A stretch of 35,578 bases of DNA from contig RFFQ01000187.1 in assembly GCA_003697105.1 (NCBI GenBank), positions 1 to 35,578 on the forward strand. Reading direction: 5' to 3'. Within the stretch, counting starts at the first letter, position 1. Each line of letters begins with the position of its first letter. Source of the DNA: Gemmatimonadota bacterium (GTDB taxonomy: Bacteria; 4572-55; J002). The translations under genes were made by a program, and so were the position numbers. Shown here piece by piece: positions 337-30,316 of the stretch. The notes under the pieces are model-generated. The model had not been told where the DNA came from and ran no database searches. It saw nothing but the letters and a program-made list of their open reading frames with translations.

Positions 337-2826
337 TTAGGGATGTGCCACCACTACCGTCTGGGTTTTCACCGTGGTGCCAAGAGTTATCGCGCAAATA
401 TAGAGATGATCCGGTACGACCTTCCCGTTACGGTCGCGACCGTCCCACAACACCCCAATCGCGGCGTCTTCAGGTGTAAATACGCGATTATCCACCAGTG
501 TTCGCTGCAATCGACCGGCGATATTGTAAATTTGGATGGTTACCGGACGTGGTTGATCTAATGAGAACCAGATTTGAGCCACTTCTCCGGTAGATGGGGC
601 AAATACTCGCGGTAGCACATCTACCTGTGCTGTGGTGATCGAAAATATCTCTGAAAAGACGGTATCGGAGCTATTCAAGGGGTCGCTTACGGTCAAACGT
701 AATTGCCCCTGCCGCTCCGAACCATAACCGGAGGTATCCCACACGTAGCGTCCATCATTGACCGCCATCGGTTGGGCTTCGGCATCAAATGGGTTCAATG
801 ACCGCCACGAAACGCCTCCATCGTTGCTATAATCGATCTGAATGGTTAAATCCTCCGGTAAATGATCGCTATCAGTCGCTTCCCACAAAATCTCTTGTAA
901 CCCAGTCCAGACCGTATTAGGTGTCATGGGGCGGCGCAATGTCGCTTGCGGGGCGTTATTGATGGTGTTGATGGAGAACTGTTTTTTGCCAGTCCATCCC
1001 GAACTCAAACCGGAGGCATCCACTGCCCGGACCCAAACTTCATACAATTGGTCTTCTAGTAAGGGTTCACTTGTCCAGCGGGTCACTCCGCTAACCATCT
1101 GATCCACTTCGGTTTCGATCTTTTGAAATTTAAAAATTTGAATTTGGTAGCGCATGGTTTCGGGGGTATCCAGCGGGTCTGGATCGTTGTTGAATTGCCA
1201 GCGCACGGTGACCACCGGTTGGTTCGCATCGGGTTCTGGGATGACATCTAGCGGAGTAGCGGGTGCCTCCGGCTGAACATCCACCACAAACGACTGCGTT
1301 GATGACCATCGCGCGGAAGAATCCCCTTGAGCATCTACAGTACGCACGCGATAATACCAGCGTTGGTTATCCTGCAAAGGATTATCCGGTTGCCACATCG
1401 CTTCACCGGGGGGAGTGAGCACATCGATTGCAACCGGGTTAAACGTTGGTTCCACCGAAAGTTGCAAGTGATATTGTATCTCCAGAGGCGTATTGACCGG
1501 ATTCCATTGGATCCGTGGACGCGGTGTTCGGATAATCTCATCATTTGCGGGTGAAAAGCCACCTTGGACAACTACCGGACGGAGCTTAAGCCAGCGGGCA
1601 AAAATATCTCGGGAATGCTCCCAAACAACCCACACCCGATTATTAACCACGTCCACAGCGAGTTGCGGTGAGCGATGAAACCCAATGGGTTCATTCACCT
1701 GCATCACCGATGACCAGACTTCCGTACCGTAGGGACGATAGCGGTAATAAATATCACTGGAATCCGCGGTATTACTTTGCCAAGTTACCCACATGTTTAG
1801 TGCCGGATCGACCACAATTCCCGGTAACGTGTCATCTCGACCGGGTAATTCTACGGAGATGGGTTCATCCCAGACGTCTGCTTGTAGGGATTGTAGCCAG
1901 ATGTCCCGCGCACCGGATTCCCCGCGAGCCCACGCCAGCCACACTTGACCGTGTTCCGTGATAAAAATCGCTGGGTCTGTATCGTGGCTCCCATCCGGGG
2001 TCAGTTGCCCTTCTGGCAAAGATGGATCGGGACCGGAGAGCGGTTGCCAACCTTCCGGTGTATGCCGGTAAGCAAACAGGGCACTCCCGCGGGGCCTCTC
2101 AAATGACGCGACGACCCAGGGTTGGTACGTTTGGGGATGCACCGCAATTGCCGGAAAGGAGCCGCTCGAAATCTGGTGTTCCGCAACAACCACCGGGTTA
2201 CCTTGCCACCGCCCGGGGAAACCATCCACATACTGTTGTGCCATCACCGAAACGGTATCGGGATGGGAATCTATCTCCGCATTTAACCGGCGATACCAAA
2301 CTGCCCAAATATCGGGTCTGGTGCGGCTGGCAGCGATGTTTGTTTGCATATCCCAATCCTCACCAGAGGATGAAAAACTATGGGGACCGCGCCAAGCTCC
2401 GGTCTGGGGATAAAAACTCCGGTCATATAGGCGGCTGGCGATGTTTGTCTCTTGCCAGAGTAACATGATCCCCCCCAAGGCACTGATGGCGACTTTCGGA
2501 TGTTCGTTTGAGCTATAATCGGAGAGTTGTCCTTGGCTATAATGACTTTCTACCGGCGGGGGGTACTCCCAATTTTGACCATTGTCGGTTGAGAATTTCG
2601 TAAATGTGAGTGATTCTGTTGCATCACCTTTGCGCTGCCAAGTTATCCAAATTGACCCATCCAGTGCTGAAATAGCCAGATGGGGCATATCATTTAGCCA
2701 ATCGGATGTTTCTACGGCTAAATTATTGGAGCCCACCAACCGCTCATCAACCGGAAATCCCGGGACGGGGATCACCAGTTGAGTGACAGATACCCATATC
2801 AATGAGATTAATATCGTGCGGATCAT
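337..2826 (-). CDS. secreted propeller / fibronectin-like protein with C-terminal FlgD Ig-like domain
   Basis: An 829-residue exported protein of unknown exact role. Residues 1-23 form a signal peptide (hydrophobic TILISLIWVSVTQLVI). Residues about 40-420 carry at least six spaced strands of the type xxWVxWxxxxxxxxI (for example IWITWQRKGD, VWLAWARGES, MWVTWQSNTA, VWVVWEHSRD), as in sialidase/BNR-like beta-propellers. Three fibronectin/Ig-like modules follow at about 430-520, 530-640 and 640-735. The last 90 residues match the FlgD Ig-like type (VTIQIYNIAGRLQRTLVD, then GVLWDGRDRNGKVVPDHLY), which ends many secreted proteins in FCB-group and related phyla. The ATG overlaps the stop of the upstream repeat-protein gene as ATGA, and no clear Shine-Dalgarno is seen, so translation is probably coupled. 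Likely cell-surface or extracellular; ligand unknown. Confidence 0.85.
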   Translation of the reverse strand: MIRTILISLIWVSVTQLVIPVPGFPVDERLVGSNNLAVETSDWLNDMPHLAISALDGSIWITWQRKGDATESLTFTKFSTDNGQNWEYPPPVESHYSQGQLSDYSSNEHPKVAISALGGIMLLWQETNIASRLYDRSFYPQTGAWRGPHSFSSSGEDWDMQTNIAASRTRPDIWAVWYRRLNAEIDSHPDTVSVMAQQYVDGFPGRWQGNPVVVAEHQISSGSFPAIAVHPQTYQPWVVASFERPRGSALFAYRHTPEGWQPLSGPDPSLPEGQLTPDGSHDTDPAIFITEHGQVWLAWARGESGARDIWLQSLQADVWDEPISVELPGRDDTLPGIVVDPALNMWVTWQSNTADSSDIYYRYRPYGTEVWSSVMQVNEPIGFHRSPQLAVDVVNNRVWVVWEHSRDIFARWLKLRPVVVQGGFSPANDEIIRTPRPRIQWNPVNTPLEIQYHLQLSVEPTFNPVAIDVLTPPGEAMWQPDNPLQDNQRWYYRVRTVDAQGDSSARWSSTQSFVVDVQPEAPATPLDVIPEPDANQPVVTVRWQFNNDPDPLDTPETMRYQIQIFKFQKIETEVDQMVSGVTRWTSEPLLEDQLYEVWVRAVDASGLSSGWTGKKQFSINTINNAPQATLRRPMTPNTVWTGLQEILWEATDSDHLPEDLTIQIDYSNDGGVSWRSLNPFDAEAQPMAVNDGRYVWDTSGYGSERQGQLRLTVSDPLNSSDTVFSEIFSITTAQVDVLPRVFAPSTGEVAQIWFSLDQPRPVTIQIYNIAGRLQRTLVDNRVFTPEDAAIGVLWDGRDRNGKVVPDHLYICAITLGTTVKTQTVVVAHP

Positions 2827-4328
2827 GAATAAAAGACTTTCGCTTGGTCTTGCAGGTGCTTATGGACAATCAGGGGTGTTGTGGGATTTTCCCGTAAGGC
2901 GCTATAGACGGAGGGGTCTTGTACCCATTTTTCATTCTGGGCGATTGCCCAGAGCACAATTTCCGGTGTTTTTTCGCGTCCGGCAAGCATCAAGACATCT
3001 TCTTTTTTCATCAACGGGTTGTTCAGAGCGGATTTGACCACATTCCCATCGGGATCGGTGATCAGCACATCTAAAATCAGACGGATATTGGTCTGCGCCG
3101 CGAGTGCCACCCGGGAGCTATATGGCAACCCTCTCACTTTTTTTGCGAGGGCAATCCGGGCTCGCCGGCGGATTTCGGGGCTAAGTTCCGGTAAACGGGT
3201 GATTTCTAGCAAATCCTGCTGAGTTAGGTCGGGTAACAAGGGGATCGAAATCTCCGGCGGGGTATTGGGGTTACGGGTCAGTGCCAATTTAATGGGGTAC
3301 ATGGCACTCCATTTTTTATTTGCGGCAATAACGCGCAAGAGTTCCGGTGTGGTACTGCGGCGGTTGGTGAGCAGAATAATTTGATGATCGCGCAAACGGG
3401 GATTGGCTAAAACGTGCTTGAGGACTTCAGGCTCGCGGTCGTAAATCAGGAATTGGAGCCATTTTTGGTCGCCTTTTTTTGCCAGTGCGATTCGTTCGCC
3501 GGTCATTAAGTGCTTGGTCTGTTCTCGGGCATCCTCTACGGCACTATCGCTCAACATTTCGTGGAGGAGTTCATCCGGCGGGGCTAAATCCTCTGTGTCA
3601 TGGATGATGCGCACCGGTGCCCAGAGTGTTTTCATGGTATCTAACTGGTACGAACCATCGTCTAATCGATCAAATCCTTGTTCTTGCAATCGTTTACCAA
3701 GTTGGGCGTACACTTTGCGGATAATGCCCACATTATCCCCTTGTAAAAAGAGTTCTGCCAAGGCGTAGGGTTGGATCCGAATCTGTTTCAGGCTCTCAAA
3801 TCCATCTGCTTGGCAGGTGTTATACAGATGTTTAAGTAGATGGAGCATTCCCAATGGGGATCGACTCAGCTTGAGTTCGGTAGCAAAACCGCGAATGACT
3901 TGCATCAAACAGGGGATCAATTCTGCCAGCATCCGTGCTGATCGATTGAACAAGCGCGGAAAATCGGTCATCAGTTGCCAGACATTGAGATAGCCTTGGT
4001 GCAGGGTTTCTTCCAGCATCTGTTGCCAGCGCCGTTCCCCGATCAATTGGCTGATTTCGTACTCGCAAAGCAGGCAGAGCAAAACCCGCTCGGCATCCGG
4101 GTCTTCCCGGATCGCTTCCTCGTAGATCGAATGCAGGAGGATGGGCACATCTTCTAACGGCTGATCTTCCAATGCCATCGCTAACCCTTTGATGATGGCG
4201 TAATTTTCGGTATGAATGGAGAGATCGTGGATGAGTTGGAGAGCTTCTTGACGAAGGCGCAGGGGACGCTCCCACTTGAGTACCCATTCGGATGAGGAGC
4301 GCGGGGTCGGGGTCGCATGAGGAGACAT
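2823..4328 (-). CDS. cytosolic LRV/HEAT-like repeat protein
   Basis: A 501-residue protein without signal peptide. The start is the ATG at 4328, preceded at 7 bases by GGAAGGAA; a TTG 33 bases upstream in the same frame is unlikely. The first ~270 residues are alpha-helical without a family I recognise. From about residue 280 there are helical units with the leucine-rich-variant flavour: REPEVLKHVLANPRL, TTPELLRVIAANKKW, KLALTRNPNTPPEIS, NVVKSALNNPLMKKEDVL, EIVLWAIAQNEKW. Such alpha-solenoids usually bind other proteins; no catalytic motif is visible. It is the promoter-proximal gene of a pair, with its TGA overlapping the ATG of the secreted 829-residue protein. A second, exported LRV protein lies at 10434-12608. 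Confidence 0.8.
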   Translation of the reverse strand: MSPHATPTPRSSSEWVLKWERPLRLRQEALQLIHDLSIHTENYAIIKGLAMALEDQPLEDVPILLHSIYEEAIREDPDAERVLLCLLCEYEISQLIGERRWQQMLEETLHQGYLNVWQLMTDFPRLFNRSARMLAELIPCLMQVIRGFATELKLSRSPLGMLHLLKHLYNTCQADGFESLKQIRIQPYALAELFLQGDNVGIIRKVYAQLGKRLQEQGFDRLDDGSYQLDTMKTLWAPVRIIHDTEDLAPPDELLHEMLSDSAVEDAREQTKHLMTGERIALAKKGDQKWLQFLIYDREPEVLKHVLANPRLRDHQIILLTNRRSTTPELLRVIAANKKWSAMYPIKLALTRNPNTPPEISIPLLPDLTQQDLLEITRLPELSPEIRRRARIALAKKVRGLPYSSRVALAAQTNIRLILDVLITDPDGNVVKSALNNPLMKKEDVLMLAGREKTPEIVLWAIAQNEKWVQDPSVYSALRENPTTPLIVHKHLQDQAKVFYS

Positions 4329-4354
4329 GAGCCATTTCCTTCCGAATATCAATC

Positions 4355-4383
4355 TTGACAACCCAGTTGAACACGCCTATTAT
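4355..4383 (+). promoter_or_regulatory. sigma70-type promoter for the TPR gene
   Basis: TTGACA at 4355-4360, 17-base spacer, TATTAT at 4378-4383. The predicted start, near 4390, gives a leader of about 30 bases before the AAAGGAG and ATG at 4421. It lies in the 92-base gap between divergent genes. Confidence 0.7.
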
Positions 4384-10433: not shown

Positions 10434-12608
10434 TCATTGTGCCATCTTCTGCAAAATATATTCTCGCAAGTCATCCGGTAAAAGCGAATTGGAGAGTAGA
10501 GCGCCCCAGACCACCCGATTTTCATCATTTGCCAGTTTTTCCAAGGCTGAGATTGGCGTCCGTGGATGCTGAGCCACATCTCGCCGGACGGTTTCTGCTG
10601 GGTCCCATGCCATCTGGGCTAAAATATCCGGGGTAATATTGGGATGTGCCACAAGGACCTTGCGTACTTGCGGGTCTTCATCTTCTGCCAGTTGCCGCAT
10701 CTGGTTATAGGGTAAATGGGGGTTGCGGGCTAAAAACTGCCGTACGGAAACCGCTGGATCACCTGCCAACAGCTCCAGCACGAAGGGAATATCCGTAAAA
10801 TAGGCAAGTTTTTCGCGCACTGCCGTCTCGGGGTCACGAACCATGAGGACTGCCAGCTCCTCCGGTAAGTTAGGGTTTTGGGCAAGAGCGCCTTTCACCA
10901 GCCGAAAATAATCCGTATTCAGCAAATAATTGATGAGTTCCGGTTCGGTATGTGTTTTAGCAATCAGGGTTTGGTATGTGGTATTGAGGCTACTCATCTT
11001 TTTCAAGGTTTCCAGAGGCGTTTGGGGGTGGACACAGACCGCCAACCCCACTTCGAGGCGAGGGTCTTTGCTTAATTGAGTTAAGACCACAGGGAAGGTA
11101 TTGGGATTTTCAGCCACGGCAATGCGTACCATCATCTGTTTATCTGTGGCAAGTTCGCGCAAAGTACGAGTCGCCGTTGTGGGATGTTGGGCGATAGCGA
11201 TCCGCACAATGTCAGCCGAATCGGGCATCATTCGATTCAGTTGTAAAGCGGAGATGGCGGGATGCCGAGCCGCCGCTAACCGTACCAAAACATCGGTATC
11301 TGTCGCCAGTGTTTCAAGGGGTATTTCGGCGGCGGGATGGATCCGCGCTACCCGCCGGATACGCGGGTCGGTGTCCTGAGTCAACGATTTGACCACCTCC
11401 ACTGGGGTATTGGGGTGCATTGCCACCGCATAGCGCAATTGCCAATCTTCGTGGGTGGCAAAAGAGGTGAGCAACTCGGCGGGTGTCTTTAAGTCCCACA
11501 CCACAGACCGTTGAAATTCGGTGACATCTTCTAGTGCCACCAAATGGAGTCGGTAATACCCATCGTATTTGGGATCGTTTAAAATATCGCGCCGGTTGAT
11601 TTCGTGCCGGGCGGCGCGTTCCAATTGCGGGGCGGGTAAAGGCAGGCTTTGTTCGACCAGTTCATCCACCAGCGAGCGTTCCAAGCGATAATGCGTCACT
11701 AAATCTCGAATAAACGGGTCTTCATCCTCAAGTAATATATTGAACACCGACGCTGGTAAATTGGGATTTTTGGCTAAATTTCGCCGTACCTGAATGGACT
11801 CATCCCGGGCTAATATTTCCAAGATTTCCGGGGGGGTACGCTCATGTATCGCCACCAAACTTCGGATGGTATCGGATTCTTCAGCAACCATCCGCTGATA
11901 ATCCACTAGGGTTTGGGTATAATTTTCGAGCAAGGTGTTTAAAGCGATTTCGCGCACCGCCGGATTGGGATCGTTGAACAATTGCCGTAAGACGGTCGCC
12001 GGAGTGAATGGGTTCGCCGCAACGGCTTCTTTCACGGGTTGGTGCAATAAGGAGCGTCCAAATCGATAATCTTTCCGGTCCACAATCGTGGTTTCATCCA
12101 TCGCAAGCCATGCCAGTACCGAAAGGGGGGTATTCAGGTGTTTTGCGACCGCTACCCGTACATCCAGTGAATCATCACTCGCAAGAACCTCGAGTACCGC
12201 GGGCATCAGCAGGCGGTTGCGGGCTAAGGATTCGCGGACTCTTTTAGAGGGGTCTGATGCCAGTACCACTAACACGGAATCCGGGGTTAAATGGTGTTGG
12301 GCAATCATCGTCCGAATATCTTCCGGGCAGTTGGGTGAAGCAATAAGCTGTGCCTGATGTTCCGGCATGTTCGCCAAAATAATAAGGCTTTCCAACGGCA
12401 ATTGGGCGATATACGCCGGAGGGAGGGCGAGCAGGTCTTCGGTTTGCCGGTACACCCGCCGGTCTCCAAACGAATAGTGATAATGTGTCTGGATAAACTG
12501 GATGCAATCTTCAACAGAGGTAGGGGTATAGCGTTGATCCGCCGCGAAGAGAACAGCAGATAAAATAAAGCCGATCAACAGAGTCGTCATAATAATCCAA
12601 TAACGCAT
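10434..12608 (-). CDS. exported long leucine-rich-variant (LRV) repeat protein
   Basis: A 724-residue protein. Residues 1-23 form a signal peptide (MRYWIIMTTLLIGFILSAVLFA, cut near A/D), so the solenoid should be periplasmic or surface-exposed. From about residue 60 to the C-terminus it is built of roughly 26-residue units with the pattern L-A-x-D-x-x-x-x-V-R-x-x-V-A-x-N/H-P-x-T-P, for example SDDSLDVRVAVAKHLNTP, RDESIQVRRNLAKNPNLP and TDKQMMVRIAVAENPNTF. I estimate 18-22 units. LRV repeats form right-handed helical superhelices; no iron-sulfur cysteine cluster like that of Azotobacter LRV is visible, since cysteines are few and scattered. AAGGAG lies 10 bases before the ATG. The gene is divergent from tex and upstream of truB. 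Function unknown; a binding scaffold is the likeliest role. Confidence 0.85.
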   Translation of the reverse strand: MRYWIIMTTLLIGFILSAVLFAADQRYTPTSVEDCIQFIQTHYHYSFGDRRVYRQTEDLLALPPAYIAQLPLESLIILANMPEHQAQLIASPNCPEDIRTMIAQHHLTPDSVLVVLASDPSKRVRESLARNRLLMPAVLEVLASDDSLDVRVAVAKHLNTPLSVLAWLAMDETTIVDRKDYRFGRSLLHQPVKEAVAANPFTPATVLRQLFNDPNPAVREIALNTLLENYTQTLVDYQRMVAEESDTIRSLVAIHERTPPEILEILARDESIQVRRNLAKNPNLPASVFNILLEDEDPFIRDLVTHYRLERSLVDELVEQSLPLPAPQLERAARHEINRRDILNDPKYDGYYRLHLVALEDVTEFQRSVVWDLKTPAELLTSFATHEDWQLRYAVAMHPNTPVEVVKSLTQDTDPRIRRVARIHPAAEIPLETLATDTDVLVRLAAARHPAISALQLNRMMPDSADIVRIAIAQHPTTATRTLRELATDKQMMVRIAVAENPNTFPVVLTQLSKDPRLEVGLAVCVHPQTPLETLKKMSSLNTTYQTLIAKTHTEPELINYLLNTDYFRLVKGALAQNPNLPEELAVLMVRDPETAVREKLAYFTDIPFVLELLAGDPAVSVRQFLARNPHLPYNQMRQLAEDEDPQVRKVLVAHPNITPDILAQMAWDPAETVRRDVAQHPRTPISALEKLANDENRVVWGALLSNSLLPDDLREYILQKMAQ

Positions 12609-20339: not shown

Positions 20340-20750
20340 ATGCAGGTTCACGAGGCATTCACCGAATACGGGCTTACCACGGAAATCGGTTATTACGACA
20401 CCAATAAAACCGTTATTGTCATCAGTTTTACGGGCGTTTTGGATATGCTCAGTGCCGAGGTGGTTTTTGTGAAACGCCGCGCTACCCTCAAAGAATGGTT
20501 TGAAAACAAGCCGGATACGCAACGAATTGTGTTTGATCTGTTTCACTTGGATCACATCAATTCATTTGCCATCGGGCATCTGACCCAATTTTATCTTGCC
20601 TTGTACAAACGCAAAATTCCGGTGACGCTCGTAATTGACCCTGAGAGTACCGTTTATCAGATTTTAGATTACTGCGGATTATTTGAGCTGCACGGCTTGC
20701 ACGTCCAGCGGAAAGATTTAACGGAAGGGCTGGAGCCTTTAGGCGGGTAA
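20340..20750 (+). CDS. STAS-domain protein (anti-sigma factor antagonist type)
   Basis: A 136-residue protein that is one STAS domain with a short N-terminal extension. The core shows the RIVFDLFHLDHINSFAIGHL strand-helix segment, in which Ser75 occupies the place of the phosphorylatable serine in SpoIIAA/RsbV, followed by KRKIPVTLVIDPESTVYQIL and GLFEL. Such proteins release a sigma factor or another target from an HATPase-type kinase when unphosphorylated. GAGG lies 9 bases before the ATG. Its last 12 bases overlap the end of the Ser/Thr kinase gene on the other strand. That kinase is a tempting partner, but this is inference. Divergent at several typical positions (no D-S-S-G motif). Confidence 0.8.
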   Translation: MQVHEAFTEYGLTTEIGYYDTNKTVIVISFTGVLDMLSAEVVFVKRRATLKEWFENKPDTQRIVFDLFHLDHINSFAIGHLTQFYLALYKRKIPVTLVIDPESTVYQILDYCGLFELHGLHVQRKDLTEGLEPLGG

Positions 20751-21734
20751 CGTGGCGATAAACGCCGAAAACGAAGCGTACGTAGCGATATTATCCGCAA
20801 AAATATCCCGGAGAGACTTCAAAAATAAAATCGCCGATTGAGGGCGTTGACCCGGTTGGAAATGTAAACAACTGTGGACAATGCCCCTTTCTTTTTCTGG
20901 AAGCGCGGCGGCATTGAACATGGCGGTCACCCATGCCTCCTGTTGTTGGCTATCTTCAATAAAGGTCTGGAACTGACTGGCATCGAGGTGTCTCCCGCGC
21001 GAATCTAATTGAAAAATAGACTTACCCGCCAGTACTTCCAACAGAATAATGCCAAGGGAATAAATATCGGCGGCGGGGGTCACCTTGGCCCCACTAAAAC
21101 ATTCTGGGGCACTGTACCCCATCGTCCCAGCGCCGAGGGGAACATGGGGAAAATCCGTTGCCGGGAAACGGTGCGACTCACGGAACACATGTGCAAAACT
21201 GAAATCACAACATACCAAATCGCCATCCGCCGAAACCAAGATATTTTCCGGTTTAAGGTCGCAATGCACCAAGCCGACACGTTCAAAATACGCCACAGCG
21301 TGTGCCAGCTCGCACAAAATATAGCCGGCGAGTGCTTGTCGTTCTGTTTCATTCGTAATGGTGGCAAGTGCCTTCATTACGGGACGTAGTGTTCCTCCGC
21401 CGAATGCCATCCGAAAATACGGAATCCGAGCCAAAGGTTTGCCCATGTGCTGGCGGTCAATCCGGTGTCCCAAAAACCGGCAAAATGAGGTTGTTTTGAC
21501 CACATACTGGCAGTTAAGACGCCACAGCAACTCCGCTTCACGTTCAAATTTGTGTTTGAGGTCGGGGTCAGAAGCCGGTAACATCACCTTGAGAACATGG
21601 GTACGCCCTTCAAAATCAACTTTGTAAATCTCTGCCATGCCTCCAAGACCCAATTGTTCTAAGATGGTGTACTTCAAAAAGGTATTATCGGCATCGATTA
21701 ATATCTCACCGGGTTTAAATCGATAAATTTTCAT
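20739..21734 (-). CDS. Hanks-type serine/threonine protein kinase, soluble, atypical motifs
   Basis: A 331-residue cytosolic kinase with no transmembrane or PASTA segment. Visible: glycine loop LGLGGMAEIYK (28-38); Lys49 in HVLKVM; Glu67 as the likely helix-C partner; catalytic loop HCDLKPENIL (157-166) with Asp159, Lys161 and Asn164; metal-binding CDFSFA (176-181); GTMGYSAPE (203-211); and DIYSLGIILLEVLAG. Odd points: HRD reads HCD (a non-RD kinase, not expected to need activation-loop phosphorylation), and DFG reads DFS, replacing an almost invariant glycine. All catalytic residues remain, so activity is likely but not certain. Its ATG overlaps the Nudix stop as ATGA, so the two are translationally coupled. 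It ends tail-to-tail with a STAS gene. Confidence 0.9.
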   Translation of the reverse strand: MKIYRFKPGEILIDADNTFLKYTILEQLGLGGMAEIYKVDFEGRTHVLKVMLPASDPDLKHKFEREAELLWRLNCQYVVKTTSFCRFLGHRIDRQHMGKPLARIPYFRMAFGGGTLRPVMKALATITNETERQALAGYILCELAHAVAYFERVGLVHCDLKPENILVSADGDLVCCDFSFAHVFRESHRFPATDFPHVPLGAGTMGYSAPECFSGAKVTPAADIYSLGIILLEVLAGKSIFQLDSRGRHLDASQFQTFIEDSQQQEAWVTAMFNAAALPEKERGIVHSCLHFQPGQRPQSAILFLKSLRDIFADNIATYASFSAFIATLPA

Positions 21735-25648: not shown

Positions 25649-25683
25649 AAAAAATAGGGTACATTTATAGATGTACCCTATTT
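25649..25683 (-). terminator. intrinsic terminator after the STAS gene, directly upstream of mfd
   Basis: On the minus strand a perfect 13-bp stem AAATAGGGTACAT (25683-25671) / ATGTACCCTATTT (25664-25652) with a 6-base loop runs into TTTTTT (25654-25649). It closes the sensor/partner-switch operon. The mfd ATG at 25639 lies 9 bases beyond. The loop reads CTATAA, so a TATAAA-like -10 sits inside the hairpin, with only a poor -35 (TTTAAT) 17 bases upstream. Confidence 0.82.
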
Positions 25684-25713: not shown

Positions 25714-26070
25714 TTATAGAGAATTAATCGCGTCGTCAATCGTATCCTGAAAATTCAAGATACTAGTAGCACCAACAATATCAAAAATTTCAAACACATT
25801 TTCATTCACCGCGGCAAGGATGAATTTACCCCCTTTTTGCACCACTCGTTTGTTGTAATCAATGATATTTCCTAACGCCGTACTATTGAGGTACTTCAAC
25901 TGTTCAAAATCGGCGATAATATTGACGACCCCGGAATCATTAAGGAGTGAGATAATCTGGTCGGAAACCGCCTGAATATTCGTGGCATCCAACGAACCTG
26001 AGAAATGCATAATTTTAGAATCACTGCGTCCTGCAACATCTTCCTGAACAATTTGGATATCTGTAGCCAT
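25714..26070 (-). CDS. STAS-domain anti-sigma factor antagonist
   Basis: A 118-residue single STAS domain. The segment NIIADFEQLKYLNSTALGNI carries Ser63/Thr64 at the phosphorylation position of the RsbV/SpoIIAA family, followed by KGGKFILAAVNENVFEIFDI, a canonical ending. When unphosphorylated it should bind the HATPase-type kinase or another switch protein. GGGAGG lies 11 bases before the ATG. It is the last gene of a four-gene run whose preceding gene, 28 bases upstream, encodes a STAS-HATPase fusion and is the natural kinase for it. A terminator follows. No sigma factor gene is linked. Confidence 0.9.
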   Translation of the reverse strand: MATDIQIVQEDVAGRSDSKIMHFSGSLDATNIQAVSDQIISLLNDSGVVNIIADFEQLKYLNSTALGNIIDYNKRVVQKGGKFILAAVNENVFEIFDIVGATSILNFQDTIDDAINSL

Positions 26071-26098
26071 CTATAAAATGACCTCCCTTGAGATGAAC

Positions 26099-26929
26099 TT
26101 ATAGTGTAAAATATTCATTTTCTTGTTTTTTAAATTTCACAATATGGATTTTGGTACCGGGGCCACTTCGGGTATCTATTTCCAGCATATCGGCGAGCAT
26201 TGCCACAATTGGCAATCCACGTCCTCGTTTTTCGACACTGACTTTGCCCTGCTCGGTAAATTGAACTTTTGCCACGGCGCGCCTCAACCCTTCGGCACTA
26301 TCTTTGGAAGCGCCTTTATCTTCAACAACCAAATCCATTTTATCATTATCGATAGTACAGCGCACATTGATCACCGAGTCACTCTCTTTTGAGCCATGTT
26401 CGATAGCATTATTGCAAATTTCATCCACAATCGTCTGAATCCGGTAGGCTTCTTTTCCTTCAAAGCCACGCATGGAAGCGATATTGGAAATAAAGTCCCG
26501 AACACAAGGCACAAAGTCGAGCGAGCTGGGAAAGGCAAGGGTGATAGTTTCTACCCGGGCGGCTTCTTCAAATTGCTGTACGGCATTATACACCGCGGGA
26601 TAAATATCAAACAGTTTATGCACACCCATCACGTGCAGGGCTTTTTCAACCGCCGGTGTAACCCCCGCTAAAATCAAATTTCCTTTCGCCGCCACGGCTT
26701 GCCCCCGGAAACCCATCAGCACTCCCAAAACCGAACCATCAATGTGATTCGTCTGGGTTAAGTCCGCAATGACCTGAAATTTTTTTTGGGCAACTAAATC
26801 TGCAATAATGGCGTTTAATTCTGAAAGCGCTTCCACATTGACCCGTTCACCAAAAGTCAACACGGGTATATCTGGGTTTGTCGGAGCGGGAACAACTTCA
26901 ATGATGTGTTTTGTGGGGTTCATTGCCAC
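26099..26929 (-). CDS. fusion of STAS antagonist and RsbW-like HATPase kinase
   Basis: A 276-residue protein. Residues about 20-120 are a STAS domain (FQVIADLTQTNHIDGSVLGV with Ser66 at the phospho-site; AAKGNLILAGVTPAVEKALH). Residues about 128-270 are a GHKL ATPase of the anti-sigma kinase group: N-box IVDEICNNAIEHGS (168-180), G1 VVEDKGAS with Asp204, G2 KRGRGLPIVAML (234-245) and RSGPGTKIHIVKF. Normally these are separate partners; here antagonist and kinase are on one chain, so self-inhibition or self-phosphorylation is possible. I favour GTG at 26929 (GAGGG 8 bases upstream) over ATG at 26923. It lies 14 bases after the PATAN sensor gene and upstream of a free STAS gene. No sigma factor or PP2C phosphatase is seen in the window. 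Confidence 0.9.
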   Translation of the reverse strand: MAMNPTKHIIEVVPAPTNPDIPVLTFGERVNVEALSELNAIIADLVAQKKFQVIADLTQTNHIDGSVLGVLMGFRGQAVAAKGNLILAGVTPAVEKALHVMGVHKLFDIYPAVYNAVQQFEEAARVETITLAFPSSLDFVPCVRDFISNIASMRGFEGKEAYRIQTIVDEICNNAIEHGSKESDSVINVRCTIDNDKMDLVVEDKGASKDSAEGLRRAVAKVQFTEQGKVSVEKRGRGLPIVAMLADMLEIDTRSGPGTKIHIVKFKKQENEYFTL

Positions 26930-26943
26930 TGATTTTACCCTCT

Positions 26944-28434
26944 TTAGGCAGATTTCACTTCAACCAAGCCGGATGAGACCAAACTGTACATGACTTTGTA
27001 TGTTTCAAATTCCGCATGAGTACTTCGCGCTAGGATGTTTTTGACGACCCGTTCTTGCTGGATCAAGGCAATAATGTTCATTTCTTCCGAGGTTAATTTA
27101 ATCTCCCGCTGGGCATCAGAGGGTTGCGGCAACACCACCAGTTCCGCATTCACACTTGGAATTAACTGTTTGATAACATCCATTTCATCCGTTTGGCGAG
27201 CACCTTCCATGAGCAAATGTTGCCAGTGCATTTTCACAGTTCGTTCTTCTTGTGTCACACCCGCCTCAAATATAAATGAACCTTTGCTCCATGTAAAGAA
27301 CGAATATACAGCTTCTTCACCCGACATCCGGTCATCAAGCAGGGCATGAACAATATCCCCATTTTCAAAGAAAATTTCCCCTTTTCCGTTGGGCGAATCC
27401 AGTGTCAGTTTGCCGGTCATTTGGGACGAGCAGATCGTATTGATCAAATCTGGGAAACTGAACACTTCCAACGTGCCTTCCAGACCCAACGCTTTACGGG
27501 CGATTTCTTTAATTCGAGTTTTTAAGGAGACCCGCATTTCATCAAATTTTTCAGCCAAAATACCGACTTCATCTTTGGTATGAACTTCTACGGCATGTTC
27601 GAGGTCACCTCCGGCGATAACCAACGCTTCATCCACAAGGTGTTTAATGGGTTCGGTCACTTTGCTTCCCACCCAACGCGCAATGACAAACGATAAGATG
27701 ATAATGATCAACGTAACCACAATCACAAACAAGATGCTTTTCAGTGTGCTGCGCCGTGCTTCTTGTTCCATACGGGCAATATCTTCTTCCAGTTTTTCAT
27801 ACGATGCCAAATACCGCACGGTATACAAGTGACCAATACCTTCTGCTTCAATTACGGGAAAGACCAAATCCAGCGCCCGAATTTCGCGCCCGTTAATATC
27901 GATAGTCGCTTCCAAGTCCACATCAGGTTCTTTTCCCTGAATGCGCTTCTTGAGTTCGGGGTCACCGGTAATTTCACGCGATCCTTCATAGCGCATCCCC
28001 CGGCCTTTTAACTCATCCCGAGAATCAAAAAGAATTTTTCCCGTGGATGAATATATAATCACGGCTCCGTTATCCACATCCGCATTATTGTCTAAGAGCC
28101 GTTGCATCGGTTCAACGAAAAATTCTTTATATGCCTCTTCAGGGGTCCCATCATAAAACGGCGGCTGGAAGTTATAGTTTTTTTCGTAAAGGTCAATAAT
28201 TTCTTGAGTCGCAAAGCGAGCAAATAAGCGGGTACGGGCTTCCAAGTCGGTTTTCATCTCGCTGCGTTTTTGTTCCAACTGGGCTTTATTCTCTTGATTT
28301 TTCAGATAGATCAGCACGCCGGCATTGATCACCGCACTCACAATAACCAGAGAGCTAATAATGGTGATCAAACGGGGGGTTAAACTGCGTTCCCAGATAT
28401 TATGCCATAGTCGCAAGAAGGGATTTGACTCCAT
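26944..28434 (-). CDS. two-TM sensor with periplasmic domain, HAMP and PATAN (DUF4388) domains
   Basis: A 496-residue inner-membrane signalling protein. TM1 is at about 22-43 (LITIISSLVIVSAVINAGVL). A periplasmic Cache-like domain spans about 44-225 (AVIIYSSTGKILFDSRDELKG; LVFPVIEAEGIGHLYTVR). TM2 is at about 231-252, and HAMP follows at 253-306 (VTEPIKHLVDEALVIAGGDL). A PATAN/DUF4388 domain occupies about 317-420 (LEGTLEVFSFPDLINTICSS; GKGEIFFENGDIVHALLDD; GEEAVYSFFTWSKGSFIFEA), then a helical, winged-helix-like tail. There is no kinase, cyclase or methyl-accepting domain, so output must be by protein contact. AAAGGA is 7 bases before the ATG. It is placed between the binding-protein lipoprotein and the STAS-HATPase gene, so it probably carries the signal across the membrane. 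Confidence 0.88.
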   Translation of the reverse strand: MESNPFLRLWHNIWERSLTPRLITIISSLVIVSAVINAGVLIYLKNQENKAQLEQKRSEMKTDLEARTRLFARFATQEIIDLYEKNYNFQPPFYDGTPEEAYKEFFVEPMQRLLDNNADVDNGAVIIYSSTGKILFDSRDELKGRGMRYEGSREITGDPELKKRIQGKEPDVDLEATIDINGREIRALDLVFPVIEAEGIGHLYTVRYLASYEKLEEDIARMEQEARRSTLKSILFVIVVTLIIIILSFVIARWVGSKVTEPIKHLVDEALVIAGGDLEHAVEVHTKDEVGILAEKFDEMRVSLKTRIKEIARKALGLEGTLEVFSFPDLINTICSSQMTGKLTLDSPNGKGEIFFENGDIVHALLDDRMSGEEAVYSFFTWSKGSFIFEAGVTQEERTVKMHWQHLLMEGARQTDEMDVIKQLIPSVNAELVVLPQPSDAQREIKLTSEEMNIIALIQQERVVKNILARSTHAEFETYKVMYSLVSSGLVEVKSA

Positions 28435-28479
28435 TAGACGGTCCTTTCTGATAAAAGATGCACCAAGTTACCAACAAAT

Positions 28480-30228
28480 TTACCGGATCGCAAAGTTATA
28501 CGGTTTATTATAGTTTTGAAGCATTCGAGTTTGGACGCGTGCGGCGGTGGTGAGTGCTTCTTGAGGACTTTCGACATCGTTAATCACTTTATTAATGGTC
28601 GCCACTTGAACTTCTTTCCAATCGATTTCCCACGGTTTAAACCACATTCCCGCATATTCGGCTTGTTCCACAAAGGGTTCGAGTAATGGATTCTCTCGTC
28701 GAGCAATTTCTCCGGCATCCCGGCGGGTAGGAGAGCGTTTGGTCTCGCGAAAATAATGTAACATGTTGTCGCGTTCCGCGCAAAATTTAATAAAATCCCA
28801 CGCGACTTCAGGGTGTTTGCAATCTTTAGAAACCACTTCGCCCCAGAACGTCGCATGGGCATACTTATTATTTAAGTCGATTTGTGGAATAGGCGCTACG
28901 CCAAAATCAATACCGGCATTGATAAATCCCCCGGCATACCATCCACCCGACATCACCATCGCACATTTACCCTCAATGAATGCTTGACGTTCTGGTGGGG
29001 CATCCGCCGACCAGATATTATATTTTTTAACAAAATCGGTGTAAAATTCAAGAGCTTCTACAAATTTAGGCTGATCTACGAGGGATTTCTTCAAATCAGG
29101 AGATACGGGTGGTTGCCCCATTTGTACGGCAATCATCTCCAGCAAGTTATGATCTTGCGAAACATTACCGACCGATCCGATTGCCGCACCATATACTTCC
29201 CCGTTTGTAGCTTTCTTTATTTGCAAACAATAGTTCAGGAAGTCATCCCACGTGCGAGGGGGACGTTCTGGGTCCAGACCTGCCCGCCGAAAAATCGTTT
29301 TATTGTAATATAAAGCAATCGTATTTGCGCCCAAGGCAATTGCCCAAAGCTTTTCATCAGGCGTATCCATATCAGTGGCAAAGGCGCGACGTACGAAGTC
29401 ATAGAACGTCTCAGCATATTCTTGTGGAGTCATCACAGACGGGGGAATCGGTTCCAGTTGGTCAATATAGTAAGGCAACCATGAGGCATGAATCTCAAAC
29501 ATATCCGGACCCAAACCCAATTCTAACGCCGGTAATAACTTTGATTGAAAATTCTTTTTGCTGATTTGCTTATATACGATATCCACATTTGGGTGCATTG
29601 CCTCATATTTTTCAATTAACGGGGCAAACACCTCCTCTTTTTCCCAAATTCGCCAATATTCTAAGCGAATTTTCGAGGTATCAACCTCAGCGAGTTCCAG
29701 TGCCACTTCATCAACAGGTTCAACAATCAAATTGGTGTGAAGCACGTCCGCCAGACTGGAGCCATCTTCCGCGTCATTTTGAACCGCAATAAACCCTTTA
29801 TTATCAACAAATAACGTTGTGGGTAAACTTTGAATTTCATACTTGGTTAAGAGGTCTGGTTCTCCCATTAGAATGGGATAAGAAATATTGTAAATCCGGG
29901 AAAATCGTGCGGCATCACGCGGGTCAGAATCAAACAAGATCGCCAGCACTTTGAGTCGTGCTTCATTACCGTTATAATATTTTTGGAGCGTGGATAAATC
30001 TTGCCGGATATCACTCTGGTCCACATCCGAACCAAAATAGATCAAACTGACAGAATTTTGAATTGTACTCGTCAGATTAACCTTTTCCCCGTTGACATCC
30101 GTCAGGGTAAAATCAACCACTTTATCGCCCAATTTTGCCCGGGACGAACAGCTACTCATGGTTAATGAGATGATGAAGATAAAAGCGAGGTAGCGTACAA
30201 AGGGGGAAAATGTGAGTATGGATTTCAT
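28480..30228 (-). CDS. lipoprotein fusing a cysteine-less thioredoxin fold to a family-1 solute-binding protein
   Basis: A 582-residue protein from the ATG at 30228; an in-frame TTG 30 bases upstream is less likely. A lipoprotein signal (VRYLAFIFIISLTMSSC) places Cys27 at the mature N-terminus. Residues about 31-165 are a thioredoxin/AhpC-like fold (LGDKVVDFTLTDVNGEKVNL; VLAILFDSDP; the cis-Pro loop SLPTTLFVDNKGFI with Pro136), but the active-site segment reads SLIYFGSDVDQSDIRQ, with no cysteine. Residues about 187-570 are an extracellular sugar-type solute-binding protein (YWRIWEKEEVFAPLIEKYEA; ELGLGPDMFEIHASW; ALGANTIALYYNKTIFRRAG; GKCAMVMSGGWYAGGF; ATFWGEVVSKDCKHPEVAWD). No ABC permease or ATPase is linked. 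First gene of the sensor operon, so a ligand-sensing role is inferred. Confidence 0.88.
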   Translation of the reverse strand: MKSILTFSPFVRYLAFIFIISLTMSSCSSRAKLGDKVVDFTLTDVNGEKVNLTSTIQNSVSLIYFGSDVDQSDIRQDLSTLQKYYNGNEARLKVLAILFDSDPRDAARFSRIYNISYPILMGEPDLLTKYEIQSLPTTLFVDNKGFIAVQNDAEDGSSLADVLHTNLIVEPVDEVALELAEVDTSKIRLEYWRIWEKEEVFAPLIEKYEAMHPNVDIVYKQISKKNFQSKLLPALELGLGPDMFEIHASWLPYYIDQLEPIPPSVMTPQEYAETFYDFVRRAFATDMDTPDEKLWAIALGANTIALYYNKTIFRRAGLDPERPPRTWDDFLNYCLQIKKATNGEVYGAAIGSVGNVSQDHNLLEMIAVQMGQPPVSPDLKKSLVDQPKFVEALEFYTDFVKKYNIWSADAPPERQAFIEGKCAMVMSGGWYAGGFINAGIDFGVAPIPQIDLNNKYAHATFWGEVVSKDCKHPEVAWDFIKFCAERDNMLHYFRETKRSPTRRDAGEIARRENPLLEPFVEQAEYAGMWFKPWEIDWKEVQVATINKVINDVESPQEALTTAARVQTRMLQNYNKPYNFAIR

Positions 30229-30287
30229 GTATAATGCCTTCTCCCAAGGAGGAATCAACTACGAGCTAAACCTTAGAACTGTGAATG

Positions 30288-30316
30288 ATTCTACACAATT
30301 TAGAAAATGATGTCAA
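30288..30316 (-). promoter_or_regulatory. strong sigma70-type promoter of the sensor/partner-switch operon
   Basis: Minus-strand TTGACA (30316-30311), 17-base spacer, TAGAAT (30293-30288). It leaves a leader of about 50 bases to the lipoprotein ATG at 30228. It is separated from the upstream xerC operon by a hairpin at 30408-30367. Confidence 0.75.

Follow-up and report, generated by a model that had tools for sequence, protein, structure and literature searches.

Organization of the Locus

The window, that is, the whole stretch of 35,578 nucleotides analyzed here, lies in contig C69 of a draft genome (G000; 4.18 Mb, 97% complete) and harbors a block of four minus-strand genes (30228-25714) encoding a solute-binding lipoprotein, a HAMP-PATAN membrane protein, a STAS-HATPase fusion and a free STAS protein. 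All four reading frames lie where the preliminary description of this DNA had put them, with gaps of 45, 14, and 28 bases that agree with the reported range of 14–45. The promoter and terminator proposed to bracket the block (30316-30288 and 25683-25649) are likewise present, as a promoter-like TTGACA-17-TAGAAT element 5' of the first gene (30288..30316, minus strand; 11 of 12 consensus matches) and a 13-pair intrinsic-terminator-like hairpin that runs into a T tract (25652..25683, minus strand). Since a consensus scan of the region as a whole returned promoter-like sites at a rate not above chance (12 found, 10.6 expected), it is position that supports the promoter-like site, and the terminator call rests on position, the 13-pair stem and the T tract. 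A XerC-like recombinase is encoded upstream of the block and Mfd downstream. Elsewhere in the window, genes for a further STAS protein (20340-20750, plus strand) and a eukaryotic-type Ser/Thr kinase (20739-21734, minus strand) converge and overlap by 12 bases at their 3' ends, and two leucine-rich-variant/HEAT-like repeat proteins with a motif resembling LA.D....VR..VA.NP.TP are encoded at 2823-4361 and 10434-12608.

Domain Composition of the Encoded Proteins

The first gene (28480..30228, minus strand) encodes the solute-binding lipoprotein. Its open reading frame spans 28480-30258, and the signal peptide favors the ATG at 30228 as start, yielding a protein of 582 aa. The identification of this product as a binding-protein lipoprotein is sustained by an SBP_bac_1 domain (residues ~185-575; Pfam, 2.6e-36) and by a lipobox-like MSSC27 in the signal peptide, but the preliminary description overlooked an N-terminal AhpC-TSA/ResA-like (TlpA-like) domain (residues 34-148; Pfam, 2e-9), the best solved relatives of which are ResA proteins. 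The only cysteines of the whole lipoprotein are residues 27, 334, 422, 470, and 483; the ResA/TlpA-like domain is thus cysteine-free, lacks the CxxC active site of ResA/TlpA thiol oxidoreductases and therefore cannot carry out thiol redox chemistry. The solved relatives of the SBP_bac_1 domain bind sugars and glycerol phosphates, and family membership suggests that the ligand is probably a sugar-like solute. The ortholog in a second species of the phylum (G001, L070:6560-8032) is 55% identical over the solute-binding part, has neither the TlpA-like part nor the lipobox, and carries a C-terminal LysM domain, so that a lipid anchor in one species and LysM in the other apparently represent two different means of envelope tethering. 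Both genomes also encode a second binding protein without a neighboring permease (L192:4536-5882 on C77 of G000; L195:4546-5730 on C16 of G001); at 46% identity, this orphan provides a yardstick for the 55% of the binding domain in the operon.

The second gene (26944..28434, minus strand) encodes a protein of 496 aa with two predicted transmembrane (TM) segments (~22-40 and ~234-252) enclosing a periplasmic domain of ~190 residues, followed by a cytosolic HAMP domain (254-305; Pfam, 7.8e-10), a PATAN/DUF4388 domain (319-418; Pfam, 7.5e-27) and a conserved tail to residue 496, in full agreement with its earlier reading as a two-TM HAMP-PATAN protein. In the G001 ortholog (L070:8193-9644), PATAN and tail are 61% identical, HAMP 50%, and the periplasmic domain 32%. 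The helix-then-mixed-sheet pattern predicted for the periplasmic domain would fit a Cache-like fold, a hint taken from a structure model that, like that of the lipoprotein, was built from a two-sequence alignment and is too poor for fold search or complexes (pLDDT 52.7 and 38.1, respectively). A cytosolic PATAN protein is encoded directly 3' of accA in both genomes (L137:4055-6265 on C48 of G000; L138:4732-7110 on C44 of G001), and this adjacency is a second PATAN linkage conserved between them.

The third gene (26099..26929, minus strand) encodes a 276-aa fusion of STAS (Pfam, 8.9e-11) and HATPase_c_2 (4.2e-21) domains, and the fourth (25714..26070, minus strand) a free STAS protein of 118 aa (1.2e-15), both as previously assigned and both devoid of TM segments. 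The HATPase_c_2 domain of the fusion retains the N-box E/N pair (E170/N174), the D-x-G motif (D204-x-G206) and a G-x-G-L motif (GRGLPIV), features that mark a kinase of the RsbW/SpoIIAB type, and its best solved relative is RsbW (6m36). The free STAS protein is RsbV/SpoIIAA-like, with acceptor Ser/Thr residues at the place of SpoIIAA Ser57/Ser58: Ser63 and Thr64, which had been singled out beforehand as candidate phosphorylation sites, fall within the segment that matches the phospho-site region of SpoIIAA (LNSTALG against MDSSGLG) and are kept in the G001 ortholog (L070:10655-11047; 54% identical). The HATPase part of the fusion kinase is 44% identical between the two species and its fused STAS domain only 27%, the acceptor position of the latter being occupied by Ser in the window, Pro in G001 and Glu in a genome from another phylum (G101). 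Because the free STAS protein keeps its Ser/Thr residues and the fused STAS domain keeps no acceptor, the former is the likely substrate of the fusion kinase, and the latter would probably serve for docking or as a scaffold instead of being phosphorylated itself.

Conservation and Genomic Distribution

G001 (L070:6560-11047), the one further species of the phylum that was searched, carries all four genes on one strand and in an unchanged order; it belongs to the same class and to a different family. Overall identities amount to 55% for the binding domain, 45% for the HAMP-PATAN protein, 37% for the fusion kinase and 54% for the free STAS protein, the best-kept cytosolic parts being PATAN (61%) and free STAS (54%). 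The flanks differ, with XerC and Mfd in G000 and FolD upstream and PP2C phosphatases downstream in G001, and the four-gene linkage looks selected because its order is kept between different families with different flanking genes.

No equivalent four-gene cluster was found in 384 further genomes, in which the neighbors of many weaker matches were read in part. Across all 386 genomes, including G000 and G001, a full-length, single-frame STAS-HATPase match of comparable strength was found elsewhere only in G101. The next-best candidates (G238, G046, and G345) were rejected as fusions, their STAS and HATPase domains being encoded by separate genes. The nearest relatives of the binding protein outside the phylum are at most 33% identical. 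For the HAMP-PATAN protein, the one match among the named genomes, in a Limisphaerales bacterium, is confined to HAMP, and its best match outside the phylum (G349) has the HAMP-PATAN architecture alone, accompanied by neither binding protein nor kinase.

Phosphatases and Output of the Switch

The preliminary description depicted a self-contained pathway with no linked phosphatase, transporter or sigma factor. In the window, no phosphatase gene is indeed linked to the block, but in G001 two genes for membrane SpoIIE-type PP2C phosphatases lie directly 3' of the free STAS gene, after a gap of 81 bases. In both products, a pair of TM segments encloses an extracytoplasmic region, and HAMP and GAF domains are present as well. 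The first of them (L070:11129-13522) reads GSNFLD, IGIVFTKG, and FTPG where active phosphatases read GGDYYD, IGDVSGKG, and YTDG, and is likely a pseudophosphatase, its metal-binding residues having been lost; the second has intact metal-binding motifs. A tandem PP2C pair of the same kind is encoded in G000 on a separate contig, C112 (L133:11709-7059), its first member (L133:9361-11709) retaining the metal-binding residues. The second members of the two pairs group as sisters (support 96/97) in a phylogeny of 29 SpoIIE domains, in which the first members form long branches within the same clade, their exact place being unsure. Furthermore, G101 encodes a SpoIIE-type PP2C, a HATPase, a STAS-HATPase fusion and a STAS protein in one gene row. 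The 4.3-kb contig that carries this row contains neither PATAN nor binding protein, and a search of the G101 genome with profile A1 returned only a HAMP-type match. The G101 fusion (L186:1121-2406), which adjoins the second, stand-alone HATPase, has apparently lost its D-x-G motif, so that one of the two G101 kinases may be inactive.

Given the downstream pair in G001, the matching pair in G000 and the gene row of G101, PP2C phosphatases appear to be the customary companions of this kinase/STAS pair, and a self-contained module that lacks a phosphatase cannot be upheld as a general description. The linkage further suggests that the PP2C pair would act on the STAS protein of the operon. As judged from its gene content, the system looks like an ordinary kinase/STAS/PP2C core that this lineage has supplemented with a putative solute-binding receptor and HAMP-PATAN relay, both of them encountered with the core in a single phylum to date.

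In the G000 draft (97% complete), six TIGR02937 matches comprise RpoD, ECF-like and divergent forms, one of the six, on C98, not being cleanly readable; none was recognized as a SigB/F-type sigma factor. A SigB-type output was set aside on this account, and the STAS protein probably has a target other than a SigB/F-type sigma factor. At the locus itself, no stressosome genes (RsbR, RsbS or RsbT) adjoin the operon.

Proposed Signaling Pathway and Alternative Explanations

The observed domains, catalytic residues, conserved linkage and phosphatase pair can be accommodated in a pathway whose direction, protein contacts, dephosphorylation step, ligand and target we infer as follows. An envelope-anchored, sugar-type binding protein would convey the presence of its ligand to the periplasmic part of the two-TM HAMP-PATAN protein, and HAMP would pass the resulting state to the PATAN domain. 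PATAN would in turn contact the STAS-HATPase kinase, probably via the fused STAS as docking or scaffold part, and the kinase would phosphorylate Ser63/Thr64 of the free STAS protein. The membrane PP2Cs would remove the phosphate, acting in trans in G000 (C112) and from the same gene row in G001, and the free or phosphorylated STAS protein would then bind its target. The arrangement of TM segments, periplasmic domain, HAMP and PATAN is a receptor layout without an enzyme, which is why the HAMP-PATAN protein would have to work through direct protein contact, the simplest partner being the kinase of the adjacent gene.

That the operon is an envelope-sensing partner-switch module, with a signal running from the binding protein via HAMP-PATAN to the kinase/STAS pair, has in our estimation an even chance of being correct. 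Precedents in which binding proteins feed other receptors (PMC9602780) or a Ser/Thr kinase (GlnH-GlnX-PknG; PMC9769921) count in favor of this module. The restriction of the full gene set to two known genomes, the occurrence of the HAMP-PATAN architecture alone in G349 and the finding that adjacent genes for binding proteins and sensor kinases are not always functionally linked, with no interaction in Pseudomonas cases (PMC11113362), count against it. So does the literature on PATAN proteins, which describes them as effectors of motility with binding partners such as PilB1 (PMC7690835) and not as kinase regulators. The more specific claim that the solute-binding protein drives the STAS/HATPase switch via a non-enzymatic TM-HAMP-PATAN relay is put forward tentatively, as somewhat less likely than not.

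The direction of signaling could also be reversed. HAMP domains are able to work in both directions, and inside-out logic of the LapD type would serve as a model for a PATAN protein that is a client of the switch: the membrane PP2Cs would be the sensors, the switch would act on PATAN, and the signal would travel outward via HAMP to the binding protein or an envelope process. The TM segments, extracytoplasmic region, HAMP and GAF domains of the G001 phosphatases, which could sense unaided, agree with such a scheme, as do the G101 switch, beside which a PP2C but neither PATAN nor binding protein is encoded, and the role as effectors of the PATAN domains known so far (PMC7690835). It is nevertheless at odds with the receptor-type layout of the protein, in which a cytosolic domain follows the periplasmic domain and HAMP, and with the higher conservation of the binding domain (55%) than of the periplasmic domain (32%), as would be expected of a ligand binder, and we consider it unlikely.

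Transport offers another reading of the lipoprotein, which might mainly serve a permease encoded elsewhere and be coupled to the switch in expression without being its receptor. Among its nearest relatives outside the phylum, MalF/MalG-type ABC permeases adjoin 9 of the 10 loci with neighbors read, and this prevalence indicates that the binding domain would have been recruited from transport. The preliminary description had raised the case of a binding protein regularly encoded beside ABC permeases; this holds outside the phylum and in neither species within it, no permease adjoining the four genes in the window or in the G001 locus, in accordance with the reported lack of a linked transporter. 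In G000, a MalF/MalG-type permease pair on C10 has neither binding protein nor ATPase in the 11 kb read, and it could be thought to depend on the lipoprotein. Its G001 counterpart (L194), however, has its own binding protein and ATPase, yet the switch-linked binding protein is kept in that species, and the orphan on C77 could serve the C10 pair of G000. Moreover, a LysM domain, or a lipid anchor with an extra domain, would be unusual for a transport-only protein in a diderm. A mainly transport function is quite unlikely; the binding protein of the operon may still have a transport role, alone or additional. It is very unlikely, finally, that the binding protein and the three signaling genes are neighbors without direct functional contact, as the non-interacting Pseudomonas pairs might suggest (PMC11113362), against which stands a gene order that two families with unlike flanking genes have in common.

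Comparison With Known Systems

Under the envelope-sensing scheme, the conserved linkage suggests that a switch whose usual input comes from phosphatases can be set by an extracellular nutrient. The inputs of known partner switches had been summarized beforehand as cytosolic stressosomes or PP2C phosphatases, which is broadly true, but the RsbU of Chlamydia senses a periplasmic ligand and conveys it to the partner switch through a PP2C phosphatase (PMC11619594). Phosphatases or stressosomes set most known partner switches; a binding-protein receptor that works via PATAN would give such a switch a nutrient input from outside the membrane, at the level of the kinase. If true, it would also constitute a new receptor class for binding proteins and assign to PATAN, for the first time, the control of a GHKL serine kinase, giving a testable partner to a domain (DUF4388) that is widespread and has almost no literature.

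In its logic, the operon comes nearest to the GlnH-GlnX-PknG system of Corynebacterium and mycobacteria, in which a binding lipoprotein, a non-enzymatic TM protein, a soluble Ser/Thr kinase and a small phosphorylated effector follow one another (PMC9769921). PknG, however, is a Hanks-type kinase and its effector OdhI an FHA protein, whereas the operon encodes a HATPase_c_2 kinase with a predicted STAS substrate; GlnX has four TM helices and neither HAMP nor PATAN, and the system involves no STAS protein, HATPase kinase or PP2C. By parts, the nearest systems are RsbU/RsbW/RsbV and SpoIIE/SpoIIAB/SpoIIAA, which share the GHKL serine kinase, a STAS protein with Ser/Thr and membrane-sensor PP2Cs. 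The operon differs from them in a kinase that carries a second STAS domain and in the additional HAMP-PATAN and binding proteins and, unlike SigB/F partner switches, it comes from a genome in which no SigB/F-type sigma factor was found. The cyanobacterial proteins PixE, PixG, LsiR, and PatA likewise use PATAN as a protein-contact module (PMC7690835), but they are cytosolic PATAN-CheY response regulators, and the PATAN domain of the operon is instead fused to TM segments and HAMP.

Binding proteins are known to activate chemoreceptors, sensor kinases, c-di-GMP enzymes and Ser/Thr kinases, a list of receptors that does not include partner switches (PMC9602780), and no binding protein or PATAN domain tied to a partner switch was found in the open-access literature. 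As in the operon, the genes for such binding proteins lie beside those for receptors with a periplasmic domain; the receptor proposed here would differ in being non-enzymatic and in having a STAS/kinase switch as its partner. It is therefore the combination that is new, the core parts (kinase, STAS, and PP2C) and signaling through binding proteins being already known.
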